From a virus, in the IMG/VR virus record IMGVR_UViG_3300025286_000036, positions 1 through 42,108 of that record: a DNA stretch of 42,108 nt, one strand, 5' to 3'. Below the pieces are notes generated by a model. It was not told the origin of the DNA. It did not search any database and saw nothing but the letters and a program-made list of their open reading frames with translations. A program made the position numbers and the translations under genes. This document shows, in pieces, positions 1,112-5,647 of this stretch. Each line of letters starts with the position of its first letter. Position 1 is the stretch's first letter.

Positions 1112-1228
1112 GATCTGATCCCCGTTTTATTTAATTACTTTGACTTTGTGACCGAGTAACTTCTCGATATCGGCTACGGTTAGTTCTTTGGTTGGCTGAG
1201 TCCGTGCGGCGTGTTCTTCCTCTGTTAA
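1092..1228. repeat. 137-bp direct repeat, copy 2
   Basis: Identical to 696-832; see that entry. First differing bases are at 695/1091 (T versus C) and after 832/1228. Confidence 0.9.
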
Positions 1229-1651
1229 GCGTTCACCGTCTAAGTACCATTCTTTATCACCGCTGGCATGTTCAACCGCCGCGCCGTTTTCTCTGTGGAG
1301 CTTGCCGTTTAGATACCATTCTTTATCACCGCTGGCATGTTCAACCGCTGGCTTGTCACCTTCTCTGTGGCGCTCGTCGTTTATGTACCATTCTTTAGTA
1401 CCGTCGGCACCTTCAACCGCTGGCTTGTCACCTTCTCTGTGGGTATTGCCGTTTATGTACCATTCTTTATTACCGTCGGCATACTCAATCGCTGGTTTAT
1501 CACCTTCTCTGTGGAACTCACCGTTTATGTACCATTCTTTAGTACCGTCGCCACCTTCAACCGCTGGCTTGTCACCTTCTCTGTGGTACTGGTCGTTTAG
1601 ATACCAAAATGTATTACCGTTATTATGTACCTGTACTGTGTATTCAATCAT
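1127..1651 (-). CDS. MORN-like repeat protein, long paralogue
   Basis: 174 residues with the same head (MIEYTVQVHNNG) and tail (TVADIEKLLGHKVKVIK) as the 731-1111 gene, but four HREGDKPA units plus one HRENGAA unit. Each unit is 24 residues (72 bp) with invariant W, NG and HRE positions; the variable positions lie just before GxKEWY. This pattern resembles MORN-variant repeats, which fold as short beta hairpins. No signal peptide or membrane segment is visible. The ATG follows GAGGATCAGATC. Length difference from the paralogues is explained entirely by repeat number. Binding partner and role unknown. Confidence 0.8.
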   Translation of the reverse strand: MIEYTVQVHNNGNTFWYLNDQYHREGDKPAVEGGDGTKEWYINGEFHREGDKPAIEYADGNKEWYINGNTHREGDKPAVEGADGTKEWYINDERHREGDKPAVEHASGDKEWYLNGKLHRENGAAVEHASGDKEWYLDGERLTEEEHAARTQPTKELTVADIEKLLGHKVKVIK

Positions 1652-1680
1652 GATCTGATCCTCGTTTTATTTAATAGAGT

Positions 1681-1727
1681 GCTGCACATAACCCACTAAC
1701 GCGAATGAGTTATAAAAAGCGCTATTA
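1681..1727 (-). promoter_or_regulatory. Covarying RNA hairpin element, copy 1
   Basis: On the minus strand a conserved TAGCGCTTTTTATA block precedes a hairpin with arms TAACTCATT and AGTGGGTTA. It starts at the stop of the 61-residue gene and lies about 20 bases before the next leader. Compared with copy 2 the stem has two compensatory pair changes. No U-tract follows, so it is not a standard terminator. Confidence 0.6.
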
Positions 1728-1910
1728 CTTAGCATTGTTATATTCTTCATTGATTACGTATTGGTTATCACCAATCGCTGATACGAAATTGCGTTCAATG
1801 GCATGGTGTAATAGCTCGTCTTCGTCTAGCTCAAAATTAAAGTTTGGCGCTTGCTCCATCCATAAAGTGTGCTTACTGTATACTTTGGCTTTGTTTTTTG
1901 TAGTAGTCAT
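1725..1910 (-). CDS. Small hypothetical protein
   Basis: 61 residues, acidic in the middle (FELDEDELLHHAIE), no membrane segment. It is accepted as a gene because the ATG follows the operon's conserved GAGGATCAGATC leader exactly as in its neighbours. Its stop is followed at once by one copy of the covarying hairpin element. The overlapping plus-strand frame lacks any such start signal. Function not recognised. Confidence 0.6.
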   Translation of the reverse strand: MTTTKNKAKVYSKHTLWMEQAPNFNFELDEDELLHHAIERNFVSAIGDNQYVINEEYNNAK

Positions 1911-1938
1911 GATCTGATCCTCAAGTTAAAAAAAAATA

Positions 1939-2604
1939 TTACTCAACACCTAATAGATGTTTGTGTTTAATTATTTGTGATTCAATTTCGCGCTGGTCGG
2001 CTTCGAGTACTGGCAAATCATTGTGAGCTTGTAACATTTGATCGAAGTCAACTAACGGTATAGCTTGATCGCGTGTCTCTGCTTTGTTGCTGAATACGTC
2101 GTACACGTTGACCCAGTTACCATATGACTGTTGCAGAGGAAAATTTTTATCTTCTAAGTATAGCGCTTGTGCTTCAACACGTAGCCAGCCGCCTGTAACT
2201 TGATCAATGGTGTAACGCTTCACGCCGTCGGTAACTTCTAACAGGTTATCAAGCATACCCTTTATCATGTCGCGGTACTTCTTATGCAATTGTCCATCTG
2301 CGTTCATGGTGTAACCACCTTTAGATAGTAATTGCTCCACGTTGGTTTTCGCTTCGTCTAAAAATATGTGAACGCTGTTCATGGCGTTAACACGGTTAAT
2401 TAGCTTAAAATGTAACGCTTTTTCTTCGCGGTCGTAATTAATAGTACGTAGACACATAACCACATAAGGGTAACCTCCATCGGTGATCATCTTGCCGTCT
2501 TGGTCGTATACCTTACAAGCAAGTACGCCGTCGTGGTCTACTGTGAAGCCTAGCGTATCCGCTAGCCTGTCGATTAATTTGCCGTCGCTGTGAAATTCGT
2601 TCAT
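1939..2604 (-). CDS. Hypothetical protein, 221 residues
   Basis: A soluble-looking protein with mixed alpha/beta composition and an acidic C-terminal part. No recognised motif, signal peptide or membrane helix. Its start (ATG at 2604) follows GGAGCTAAGACC, a diverged form of the GAGGATCAG leader used by its neighbours. It lies in the middle of the leftward operon, four bases after the stop of the small membrane protein gene upstream. Function not recognised. Confidence 0.7.
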   Translation of the reverse strand: MNEFHSDGKLIDRLADTLGFTVDHDGVLACKVYDQDGKMITDGGYPYVVMCLRTINYDREEKALHFKLINRVNAMNSVHIFLDEAKTNVEQLLSKGGYTMNADGQLHKKYRDMIKGMLDNLLEVTDGVKRYTIDQVTGGWLRVEAQALYLEDKNFPLQQSYGNWVNVYDVFSNKAETRDQAIPLVDFDQMLQAHNDLPVLEADQREIESQIIKHKHLLGVE

Positions 2605-2608
2605 GGTC

Positions 2609-2803
2609 TTAGCTCCAAATGTTAAATAAATTTACTGTTAAAAAACATGCTGCCACTAGTGCAACACCGTTGACTCTTAGCTTTACGCTGATCCAGTTAA
2701 AAGCTAGCCCTAATACGCACCATATTATGGTACTCAAACATGAGATAATAAAACGCGGGTTAGCATTCCAAAATTCTACTAGGGCTGTCATTAATTCGTT
2801 CAT
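2609..2803 (-). CDS. Small membrane protein with two predicted helices
   Basis: 64 residues. Two hydrophobic stretches, about residues 17-38 (FIISCLSTIIWCVLGLAFNW) and 46-63 (GVALVAACFLTVNLFNIW), are separated by a short basic loop with KLR, which suggests a two-helix inner-membrane hairpin. The ATG follows GAGGATCAGGCC. Such small membrane proteins in phage accessory operons are often host-takeover or superinfection factors, but no family was recognised. A holin role is possible yet unsupported by its position far from the lysis genes. Confidence 0.6.
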   Translation of the reverse strand: MNELMTALVEFWNANPRFIISCLSTIIWCVLGLAFNWISVKLRVNGVALVAACFLTVNLFNIWS

Positions 2804-2817
2804 GGCCTGATCCTCAT

Positions 2818-2850
2818 TGTGTACTTAATTGTGTACTTAATTATGTACTT
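2818..2850. repeat. 12-bp tandem repeat (TGTGTACTTAAT)
   Basis: Two exact TGTGTACTTAAT units and a third diverged one between the small membrane-protein leader and the 10-bp repeats. Confidence 0.7.
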
Positions 2851-2870
2851 TGTTGCATGGTTTAAAGATG

Positions 2871-2920
2871 CTTAAAGGTGCTTTAAGCACCTTAAAGGCG
2901 CTTAAAGGCGCTTAAAGGTA
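2871..2920. repeat. 10-bp iteron-like repeat (CTTAAAGGYG)
   Basis: Five adjacent 10-bp units: CTTAAAGGTG, CTTTAAGCAC (inverted), two CTTAAAGGCG and CTTAAAGGTA. The inverted unit makes a hairpin with arms AAGGTGCTT and AAGCACCTT (1-base centre). It overlaps the stop of the 2912-3397 gene. Confidence 0.7.
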
Positions 2921-3397
2921 TTGTTGCACGGTTTTGAATGTTTGATGATCAACCGCGGTTATGCTGTACAGTTGATAAATCATATAATCATCCCACCAAT
3001 CGCCATTAATATCATGTCCCGCGTCGTCAGTGTTATGCGTTTCATTCTCAAGCGCTTTGGCTTCTGCTGCTGCTTCGTCTTGCGCTTGTATGGCTTGTAC
3101 GGTGTGCTTTTCATAGTCGCCTATACGTAGCATTAGTTTAACGATGTAGTAACCACCTGTTGCTGGTGCTTCCTCTGCTACCGTGTCCGCGGTCGGTTGT
3201 TTCTGGTACTCATTAATACGTGAAACTGTCGCATCAAATTGTAGCGTTACGCGTTTTAGCGCGTCGGTGTACATGTTACGTTCCCAAGGTAGTGCGCCAA
3301 GTGCTTTCGCCTCTTTAATTTTGGACTCAAGGCGCATTATCTCACCTTGTAAATAGTTACGGCGGTGCAATAGTTGTGCTAAGTTAAAATCTGTCAT
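2912..3397 (-). CDS. Hypothetical protein with N-terminal coiled coil
   Basis: 161 residues. Residues about 8-65 are predicted helical with heptad-like spacing (RRNYLQGEIMRLESKIKEAK), followed by an acidic, Ala-rich linker and a short Trp/Asp-rich C-terminal part. No known domain seen. The start follows GAGGATCAGACC. The stop codon lies inside the first unit of a 10-bp tandem repeat (2871-2920). It is the first gene downstream of the RadC-like gene, separated from it by the second copy of the covarying hairpin. Confidence 0.65.
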   Translation of the reverse strand: MTDFNLAQLLHRRNYLQGEIMRLESKIKEAKALGALPWERNMYTDALKRVTLQFDATVSRINEYQKQPTADTVAEEAPATGGYYIVKLMLRIGDYEKHTVQAIQAQDEAAAEAKALENETHNTDDAGHDINGDWWDDYMIYQLYSITAVDHQTFKTVQQYL

Positions 3398-3430
3398 GGT
3401 CTGATCCTCAATGGTGTGTGTTTGATAGAT

Positions 3431-3478
3431 TGCTTCACATAGCCCGCTAAGCTAACGAGCTATAAAAAGCGCTATCGT
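3431..3478 (-). promoter_or_regulatory. Covarying RNA hairpin element, copy 2
   Basis: Second copy, starting at the RadC-like stop. Same TAGCGCTTTTTATA block, hairpin arms TAGCTCGTT and AGCGGGCTA. Pairs 3 and 7 are G-C here and A-T in copy 1, and the wobble pairs make sense only for minus-strand RNA, matching the direction of transcription. Possible RNA-processing site, attenuator or phage promoter. Confidence 0.6.
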
Positions 3479-4015
3479 TTATAGTAGTGATCTTTCGCCA
3501 TGCTCAGCAAAGCTATATGTCCCGATACCGCTTACAATGACATGATCAAGTACGCGTAAGTCCATCAACTGAGCAGCTTTGCATATCTTGTCGGTAATCT
3601 GGCGGTCGCTGTTCGATGCTTGCAATATGCCTGACGGATGATTATGGGCTAGTATCATGGCGTTTGCTCCAAGGTCTAACGCTCTTTTGATAACTTCACG
3701 TGGGTAAACTGCTGCACTGTCAACGGTGCCGACGGTCATTTCTTCATACTTGATAATGTGGTGTTGATTATCTAAAAACATTACTGCAAATATTTCTCTG
3801 TCGCTGGTCGATAGTTTCAGGCGTAAAAACTGACCTACTCTACGGCTACTGTTCATTAAATTACTACACGACTGCGTAATTTTAGAGGCCAATATATCAA
3901 GCGCTTTGTTTATTGTTGCCTGTTCTGACTCCGAATAAGCGTTATTTGTGCTAAATGGTGCAATGATATTGCTGTTTAATGGTGTGTGATTGATGCTAAT
4001 TACGTTGTTTAACAT
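3479..4015 (-). CDS. radC: RadC-like JAMM (MPN) domain protein
   Basis: 178 residues. The C-terminal two thirds match the RadC/JAB domain: a Glu pair at 91-92, then H124-N-H126-PSG with S and D137 ten residues on, giving the complete HxH-x10-D zinc site of JAMM proteins, and the family ending DHVIVSG-GTYSFAEHG. The helix-hairpin-helix N-terminus of chromosomal RadC is absent; residues 1-60 are a different, mostly helical region. Enzymatic activity of RadC proteins is not settled; the name reflects homology, not a shown DNA-repair role. Phage and plasmid copies often sit among anti-defence genes. It is the first gene of the leftward operon and is likely controlled by the palindromes upstream. 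Confidence 0.88.
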   Translation of the reverse strand: MLNNVISINHTPLNSNIIAPFSTNNAYSESEQATINKALDILASKITQSCSNLMNSSRRVGQFLRLKLSTSDREIFAVMFLDNQHHIIKYEEMTVGTVDSAAVYPREVIKRALDLGANAMILAHNHPSGILQASNSDRQITDKICKAAQLMDLRVLDHVIVSGIGTYSFAEHGERSLL

Positions 4016-4117: not shown

Positions 4118-4131
4118 AACGAAAATTCGTT
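4118..4131. promoter_or_regulatory. Palindrome 1 (operator-like)
   Basis: AACGAAAATTCGTT, a copy of the ACGAAATTTCGT palindrome with one altered centre base. Confidence 0.55.
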
Positions 4132-4140
4132 GATTTAATA

Positions 4141-4154
4141 TACGAAATTTCGTA
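4141..4154. promoter_or_regulatory. Palindrome 2 (operator-like)
   Basis: TACGAAATTTCGTA, a perfect 14-bp palindrome, 23 bp from palindrome 1. Confidence 0.6.
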
Positions 4155-4178
4155 GCGAAAAGGGCTAAAATGCTAAAT

Positions 4179-4194
4179 CGACGTGCCCACGTCG
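4179..4194. promoter_or_regulatory. Inverted repeat CGACGTG-CC-CACGTCG
   Basis: Seven-base arms with a 2-base centre, between palindromes 2 and 3. Could be another binding site or an RNA hairpin. Confidence 0.45.
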
Positions 4195-4238
4195 TGTTTT
4201 AGGTTTAGCTATTAATTACAACGTGTTACAGCATAACG

Positions 4239-4250
4239 ACGAAATTTCGT
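4239..4250. promoter_or_regulatory. Palindrome 3 (operator-like)
   Basis: ACGAAATTTCGT, the same core as palindrome 2. Confidence 0.6.
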
Positions 4251-4921: not shown

Positions 4922-5647
4922 ATGGCTACGAAGCGTTTTAAGCCCCTTAATGCTAATGAACTAACTGTATTGCAGCATAGACAAGCGGGTGACTCTGCAA
5001 TTGAAAGCTATCAGCGCGGTTATCCTCATGTACAACGCTATAAGCCCGATACGATTATAGCTAAGACTGAAAAGTTTTTTAATACGGATCGTATGAAGTA
5101 CTATATTTCGACTGATTTACCAAAACGCGACGATTTGCCAAAATTAGCGGGTCGTGGTGCAAAAGGTAAATATTATCCCGAACTGGTGATCGAGTGTTAC
5201 GAGTATTTTAATATTGCACCTGTTACGATTAAAGCGGTTGTTGATGAACACACGGGCGAAACTTCTTTAGAATCAACGGTTAACAACTTACCAACGAAAG
5301 CAGGTTTTGCGTGTCAAGTGGGTATTTTACAGAGTACGCTTGCCGATTACGCTATTCGATTAAACGAAAATGGAACGTTAAAATACCCAGAATTTGCCGC
5401 AGCATGGGCAAGTGCCAGAGACGCACAAGAAAATATACTAGTGTCAAATACCCTCGCAGGGCATTATAATGCGGGATTTGCCAAGTTTGTCGCACAAAAT
5501 TTGTTAGATTACCGAGAAAGCCGTGACCTGACCGTAGTCGATACGACACCGAAACCAGTAATAAATATCAACGTCGATATGACACCTGAACAGGCCGCGC
5601 AAGTATACATTGACCAAATGAAAGGAATTGAAGACAAGAAGAATTAA
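4922..5647 (+). CDS. terS: Terminase small subunit (DNA-packaging, gp3-like)
   Basis: 241 residues. The C-terminal half (about 115-205) resembles the P22 gp3-type small terminase: a PTKAGFACQVGI-TLADYA helix-turn-helix-like region, an EFAAAWASARDAQEN helix, and a GFAKFVAQNLLDYRE segment. Residues 8-60 (LTVLQHRQAGDSAIESYQRG, then KFFNTDRMKYYIS) look like the N-terminal region of another small-terminase family (Terminase_2). TerS recognises the packaging site and feeds DNA to TerL. An SD (GAGG) lies 8 bases before the ATG. Unusually it is 3.8 kb from TerL, with a leftward operon and the lysis genes between. Confidence 0.75.
   Translation: MATKRFKPLNANELTVLQHRQAGDSAIESYQRGYPHVQRYKPDTIIAKTEKFFNTDRMKYYISTDLPKRDDLPKLAGRGAKGKYYPELVIECYEYFNIAPVTIKAVVDEHTGETSLESTVNNLPTKAGFACQVGILQSTLADYAIRLNENGTLKYPEFAAAWASARDAQENILVSNTLAGHYNAGFAKFVAQNLLDYRESRDLTVVDTTPKPVININVDMTPEQAAQVYIDQMKGIEDKKN

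Follow-up and report, generated by a model that had tools for sequence, protein, structure and literature searches.

What are the two similar sequences that lie between the leftward genes of the window, and do they act as DNA or as RNA? The window, i.e. the whole stretch of 42,108 bases analysed here, is the IMG/VR virus record IMGVR_UViG_3300025286_000036, which is apparently a fragment and encodes a terminase as well as a head-tail connector of the portal type. No close relative with annotation was found for it. From its letters, a sequence-only reading had proposed a twice-occurring RNA hairpin with compensatory base changes at positions 1681-1727 and 3431-3478.

Two hairpin copies in the window

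The sequence confirms the presence of two such elements at these positions of the minus, i.e. transcribed, strand in the form of two hairpin copies of about 55 nt, with the minus-strand letters TAATAGCGCTTTTTATAACTCATTCGCGTTAGTGGGTTATGTGCAGCACTCTATTA and CGATAGCGCTTTTTATAGCTCGTTAGCTTAGCGGGCTATGTGAAGCAATCTATCAA, respectively. The 14-nt block TAGCGCTTTTTATA is common to both and has exactly two occurrences in the 42 kb, and the two regions align to each other over 72 nt (E = 4e-12). Therefore, their likeness is not due to chance. The parts of the two copies are given below, where bit scores and the E values beside them come from the covariance model R3 (see below), which had both sequences in its training set, and fold z values include the flanks.

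1673-1726, minus strand: hairpin copy 1 (win_el1), whole 20-pair structure; R3 71.3 bits, E 2.4e-14; fold z -2.8
1688-1713, minus strand: upper stem of copy 1 (1713-1704 with 1697-1688) and loop CGCGTT (1703-1698)
1681-1720, minus strand: lower stem of copy 1 (1720-1716 with 1685-1681), with one U-C mismatch in this copy
3424-3476, minus strand: hairpin copy 2 (win_el2), whole 20-pair structure; R3 73.8 bits, E 5.5e-15; fold z -6.1
3439-3463, minus strand: upper stem of copy 2 (3463-3454 with 3448-3439) and loop AGCTT
3432-3470, minus strand: lower stem of copy 2 (3470-3466 with 3436-3432)

The stem first read as 9 bp is thus present but comprises 10 bp, whereas the TATGTG taken to lie downstream of it is partly 3′ arm, and the real structure is longer than proposed: a TAG ahead of the hairpin is paired to a CTA behind it, and with a 5-bp stem in between this amounts to 20 pairs. 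The two changes from A-T to G-C pairs between the copies had been correctly recognised, as had the restriction of G-U pairs to the minus strand, which holds for the two window copies. Likewise, both copies do directly follow a stop codon, namely the TAA of the open reading frame (ORF) 1725-1910 and the TAA of ORF 3479-4015, respectively, and the start of copy 1 even falls within the former (1727-1725).

The view of the element as an RNA hairpin and not an ordinary terminator is backed by the strand-specific G-U pairs, the location and the fold energies. An intrinsic terminator was rejected for the window copies, as a U-tract is missing and neither site (1673-1726, 3424-3476) received a terminator-like call. 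An unusual terminator or attenuator working without a U-tract is decidedly unlikely: a stable hairpin past stop codons would suit it, but neither strand has a T-run following the stem, and a full stop inside a continuous same-strand array would silence downstream genes lacking promoters of their own, with no sigma-70-like promoter call adjoining the window copies. A sigma-70 promoter as the identity of the element was likewise rejected, with no call at 1673-1726 or 3424-3476, and so was a stop-codon readthrough element, since the next in-frame stop follows after 0-13 codons. No tRNA was found in the window.

Further copies in related phages

The search of relatives foreseen in the sequence-only reading yielded nine more copies on four other contigs, giving a total of eleven copies with nine distinct sequences on five contigs of related uncultured phages and at most five copies per genome. 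Three covariance models were used, R1 from the two window copies, a second model R2, and R3 from the nine distinct sequences; finds of R1 and R2 beyond their training sets are independent, while the scores of R3 are not independent of its own. R1 retrieved five copies in IMGVR_UViG_3300022670_000211 (G001; 62,495 bp), the terminase of which is 79% identical to that of the window, and R2 one copy in IMGVR_UViG_3300020231_000064 (L049). By an exact-pattern scan both copies were found in IMGVR_UViG_3300008219_000254 (L004/L027), with a hairpin identical to that of the window, and a scan for RadC relatives revealed one copy in IMGVR_UViG_3300024520_007427 (L135). With R3, all eleven copies scored 68-78 bits on the transcribed strand, in contrast to 18-25 bits for its plus-strand matches, and nothing else in 1.13 Mb was convincing. 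As G001 carries a direct terminal repeat of 144 bp (L039 1-144 and the end of L040), this contig of 62.5 kb looks like a closed genome of the clade.

Outside these contigs, R2 and R3 gave nothing convincing in terminase relatives of up to 68% identity, in the RadC relatives L136 and L137, or in TW1, ctsTn925 and vB_Pun_Y3, and DNA searches of plasmid and phage records returned no match. A scan of the viral collection with a loose stem pattern gave, apart from the relative, only chance coding matches; three pattern matches in the genome collection were due to chance, pairing being absent from them, and L005 was a spurious match to a short protein. In Rfam 15, no family reached the gathering threshold in the window, and the best sub-threshold match of the L135 copy had an E value of 7.7.

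Consensus structure and covariation

Folding of a MAFFT alignment of the nine distinct sequences by RNAalifold, without guidance, resulted in 20 pairs, arranged from the outside in as an outer stem (5 pairs), a 1x3 internal loop (a C opposite three letters), a middle stem (5 pairs), a 2x2 internal loop, an upper stem (10 pairs) and a loop of 5-8 nt. Pairing, the loss of which in relatives would have spoken against the hairpin, is retained in 97.2% of the 180 cells, and 9 of the 20 pairs change on both sides, in 16 cells, with 12 further pair types. The covariation score is 0.312 as compared to 0.094 ± 0.023, none of 500 shuffles reaching the pairing, both-sided, pair-type or score values, and controls slid along the alignment show 33-43% pairing and 0-2 both-sided pairs. 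The nine sequences share descent and their cells are therefore not independent events, yet both-sided changes affect nine different pairs, among them pairs 18-39 (G-C, A-U, U-A), 20-37 (U-G, C-G, G-C) and 3-56 (A-U, U-A, G-C), and in G001_d the outer TAG/CTA is replaced by ATG/CAT. Moreover, each copy by itself folds into the consensus shape (z from -2.8 to -7.9, energies from -16 to -26 kcal/mol). Finally, in all 23 G-U cells (23/23) it is the 5′ arm of the transcribed strand that carries the U, which is evidence for RNA of this strand because the other strand would give A-C mismatches. The element is thus a clearly covarying, previously unlisted RNA hairpin of five related uncultured phages.

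These data also bear on a DNA operator or promoter palindrome for a dimeric protein, as proposed for the extended start-associated sequences (ESAS) of Cluster K mycobacteriophages, which share the layout of the element (PMC3203893, PMC11373665). The arms of a palindrome can co-change as well, but U-G is found at pairs 12-45 and 23-34 in all copies and at pair 20-37 in 5/9, which would be asymmetric in double-stranded DNA, and neither the variable spacing across the loop nor the single orientation of the copies suits such a site, making it very unlikely.

Beyond pairing, the CTTT, TATA and GGNTAT stretches show strong conservation of primary sequence. At the same time some variants are peculiar to one genome: the two window copies have C-G at pair 21-36 where the remaining seven have A-U, four of the five G001 copies have an internal loop of the UGU/UAG type, and copies of one genome differ at only 9-13 columns (the window pair; G001 a-c). 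This likeness within a genome fits either duplication or coevolution with a partner.

Conserved letters, variants particular to a genome and closely similar copies within it are what would be expected if the element tracked a trans-acting factor, i.e. if it were the binding site of a phage or host RNA-binding protein exerting antitermination or translation control on the operon message. Still, recent duplication within a genome would also yield genome-specific variants, and no candidate protein was found, which renders this reading unlikely. Similarly improbable is the broader idea that the hairpins are the signal of a phage-specific post-transcriptional system, in which a trans-acting RNA-binding protein or nuclease would act on several accessory genes at once and coevolve with its sites, each phage having its own variant.

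Position between genes and the start-associated leader

The copies are all oriented like their neighbouring genes and reside in a single operon arm, the core starting 1-19 nt past a stop codon and ending 23-48 nt ahead of the next ATG in every copy; in four of them (win_el1, G001_b, G001_c and G001_e) the letters of the stop codon are included in the outer stem. The same-strand array around the copies, which includes the RadC-like gene and small genes without known function, probably forms an early polycistronic mRNA, its extent as an operon and its timing being presumed. In the window, the neighbouring features are:

1725-1910, minus strand: gene before copy 1, a 61-aa protein of no known function (ORF)
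1649-1663, minus strand: start-associated leader GAGGATCAGATCATG, after copy 1
1127-1651, minus strand: gene after copy 1, a repeat protein of 24-aa units
3479-4015, minus strand: gene before copy 2, a RadC-like JAB-domain protein (Pfam PF04002, E 4.7e-41)
3395-3409, minus strand: start-associated leader GAGGATCAGACCATG, after copy 2
2912-3397, minus strand: gene after copy 2, a 161-aa protein of no known function

The RadC gene directly precedes the element in the window, L004/L027, L049 and L135, and in G001 a small gene intervenes. No element follows the L049 homologue (52% identical) of the 61-aa gene that precedes copy 1, and none precedes the L049 homologue (37% over the overlap) of the gene after G001_c. 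As the element is present or absent at homologous junctions, it belongs to neither of its neighbour genes, and most junctions of its operon are without it.

Presence or absence at homologous junctions, together with the TAG...CTA ends, would also be compatible with a MITE-like remnant, a small mobile repeat inserted between genes and functionless for the phage. This is extremely improbable: the letters at the two ends covary, being ATG...CAT in G001_d, and hence belong to a stem and not to a fixed target-site duplication, and pairing is kept across clear divergence, where neutral remnants would lose it.

The leader GAGGATCAGAYCATG is usual on the gene after the hairpin, and other genes of the arm share it without a hairpin. 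Ahead of seven leftward genes of the window there is a stereotyped leader GAGGATCAG(A/G)YCATG (GGGGATCAG... in two of them), beginning on the minus strand at 313, 727, 1123, 1663, 1922, 2815 and 3409. The similarity of these leaders exceeds what a Shine-Dalgarno sequence requires, and the leader is also found in L027, L049, L135 and G001.

Other repeats occur in the same region. Adjacent ORFs at 376-1651 of the window consist of 72-nt (24-aa) repeats, which differ in sequence and repeats in the relatives and have weak Pfam matches only. Around the stop of ORF 2912-3397, tandem 10-nt units of the TTAAAGGTGC/TTAAAGGCGC type (2862-2917) could form a hairpin; in L004 the unit make-up is different (around 5480-5545). 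Upstream of RadC, between divergent genes, there are three exact ACGAAWWTTCGT palindromes (4119-4250), possibly an operator or origin region, which are also present in L004 and L135, the pattern not being matched in L049 or G001.

Possible function

The explanation favoured here, albeit tentatively, is that of an intergenic mRNA processing or stability hairpin, with host RNase III as the most likely enzyme to cut it, as in the early mRNA of T7. The element would then act in cis within a polycistronic message that a podovirus-like phage clade transcribes leftward, probably early. Host RNase III would recognise the interrupted helix and cut at or near an internal loop, whereupon the upstream message would retain a 3′-terminal hairpin blocking exonucleases and the message of the downstream gene would begin with a new 5′ end, which would allow adjacent genes separate mRNA lifetimes. 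The hairpin and the GAGGATCAGATCATG leader might move together as an intergenic cassette during gene shuffling. Since neither the window nor G001 gave a match to an RNase III domain, with a working control (8/14 control genomes matched), it is the enzyme of the host that would have to act.

In line with this explanation, one feature of T7-type sites, which are defined by cleavage, is present, i.e. an irregular hairpin with internal loops within a same-strand gene array, the latter being presumed to be one transcription unit. T7 R1.1 is a structured RNA of 60 nt with an asymmetric 4/5 internal loop, located in the gap between the early genes 1.0 and 1.1, and is an RNase III site (PMC6121014). 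Sites of this type and the present element thus have in common a hairpin of about 60 nt, one or more internal loops and a location between phage genes of the same strand, these being early in T7 and probably early here. However, in contrast to the T7 sites, a single sequence family is repeated here with strong primary-sequence conservation, and the internal loops (1x3, 2x2) are smaller than that of T7 R1.1, it being the structure that was read here and cleavage that we infer from it. Besides the smaller loops, two observations argue against this explanation: the degree of sequence conservation exceeds the need of an enzyme that recognises the shape of double-stranded RNA and may therefore point to a protein reading the sequence, and the element is missing from most junctions of the operon.

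Without being cut, the hairpin might act as a REP-like element of mRNA stability, blocking 3′-5′ exonucleases after the upstream gene and insulating the next ribosome site. Its place directly past stop codons, its stable fold and its lack of restriction to one gene family are all consistent with such a role, which is nevertheless somewhat unlikely, as a mere roadblock needs neither conserved internal loops nor a shared primary sequence. REP/BIME-type 3′ stability hairpins are repeated palindromes past stop codons in bacterial operons. The operon setting and the repeated palindromes after stop codons are shared by the element described here, but its sequence and genome are different, and it was found only in a single clade of phages, where it is linked with a start leader.

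Relation to ESAS and implications

Closest in layout are the ESAS, which together with start-associated sequences (SAS) are known from Cluster K mycobacteriophages (PMC3203893, PMC11373665) and from Microbacterium Cluster EF phages (PMC7302621). The ESAS and the present element are alike in being intergenic repeats, with inverted arms in Cluster K, that shortly precede a stereotyped start-associated leader, are associated with a subset of non-structural genes and occur in group-specific variants. However, arm changes in the Cluster K ESAS were generally not supportive of RNA pairing and DNA-binding sites were favoured by the authors (PMC3203893), and SigA-like promoters inside ESAS were described in a later paper (PMC11373665). 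In the present element, there is strong support for RNA pairing, and no sigma-70- or SigA-like promoter was called at the window copies, the element and the ESAS being set apart by these features and not by direct sequence comparison. Therefore, in spite of the common layout, the element is not classed as ESAS, because it has neither the promoter nor the non-pairing arms. A similar layout, built on a different sequence, recurs in a distant phage with a RadC-like gene (IMGVR_UViG_3300044951_001887; L136:6087-9991), whose own seven-copy intergenic repeat ends in the leader AATGAAGTCTCTGAAACGAAACGA.

An ESAS-like layout can accordingly rest on RNA structure instead of DNA recognition. The covariance model of the element can be used to find more copies, and matched junctions that either carry or lack the hairpin provide a natural series for testing how genes within one transcript may be expressed separately.
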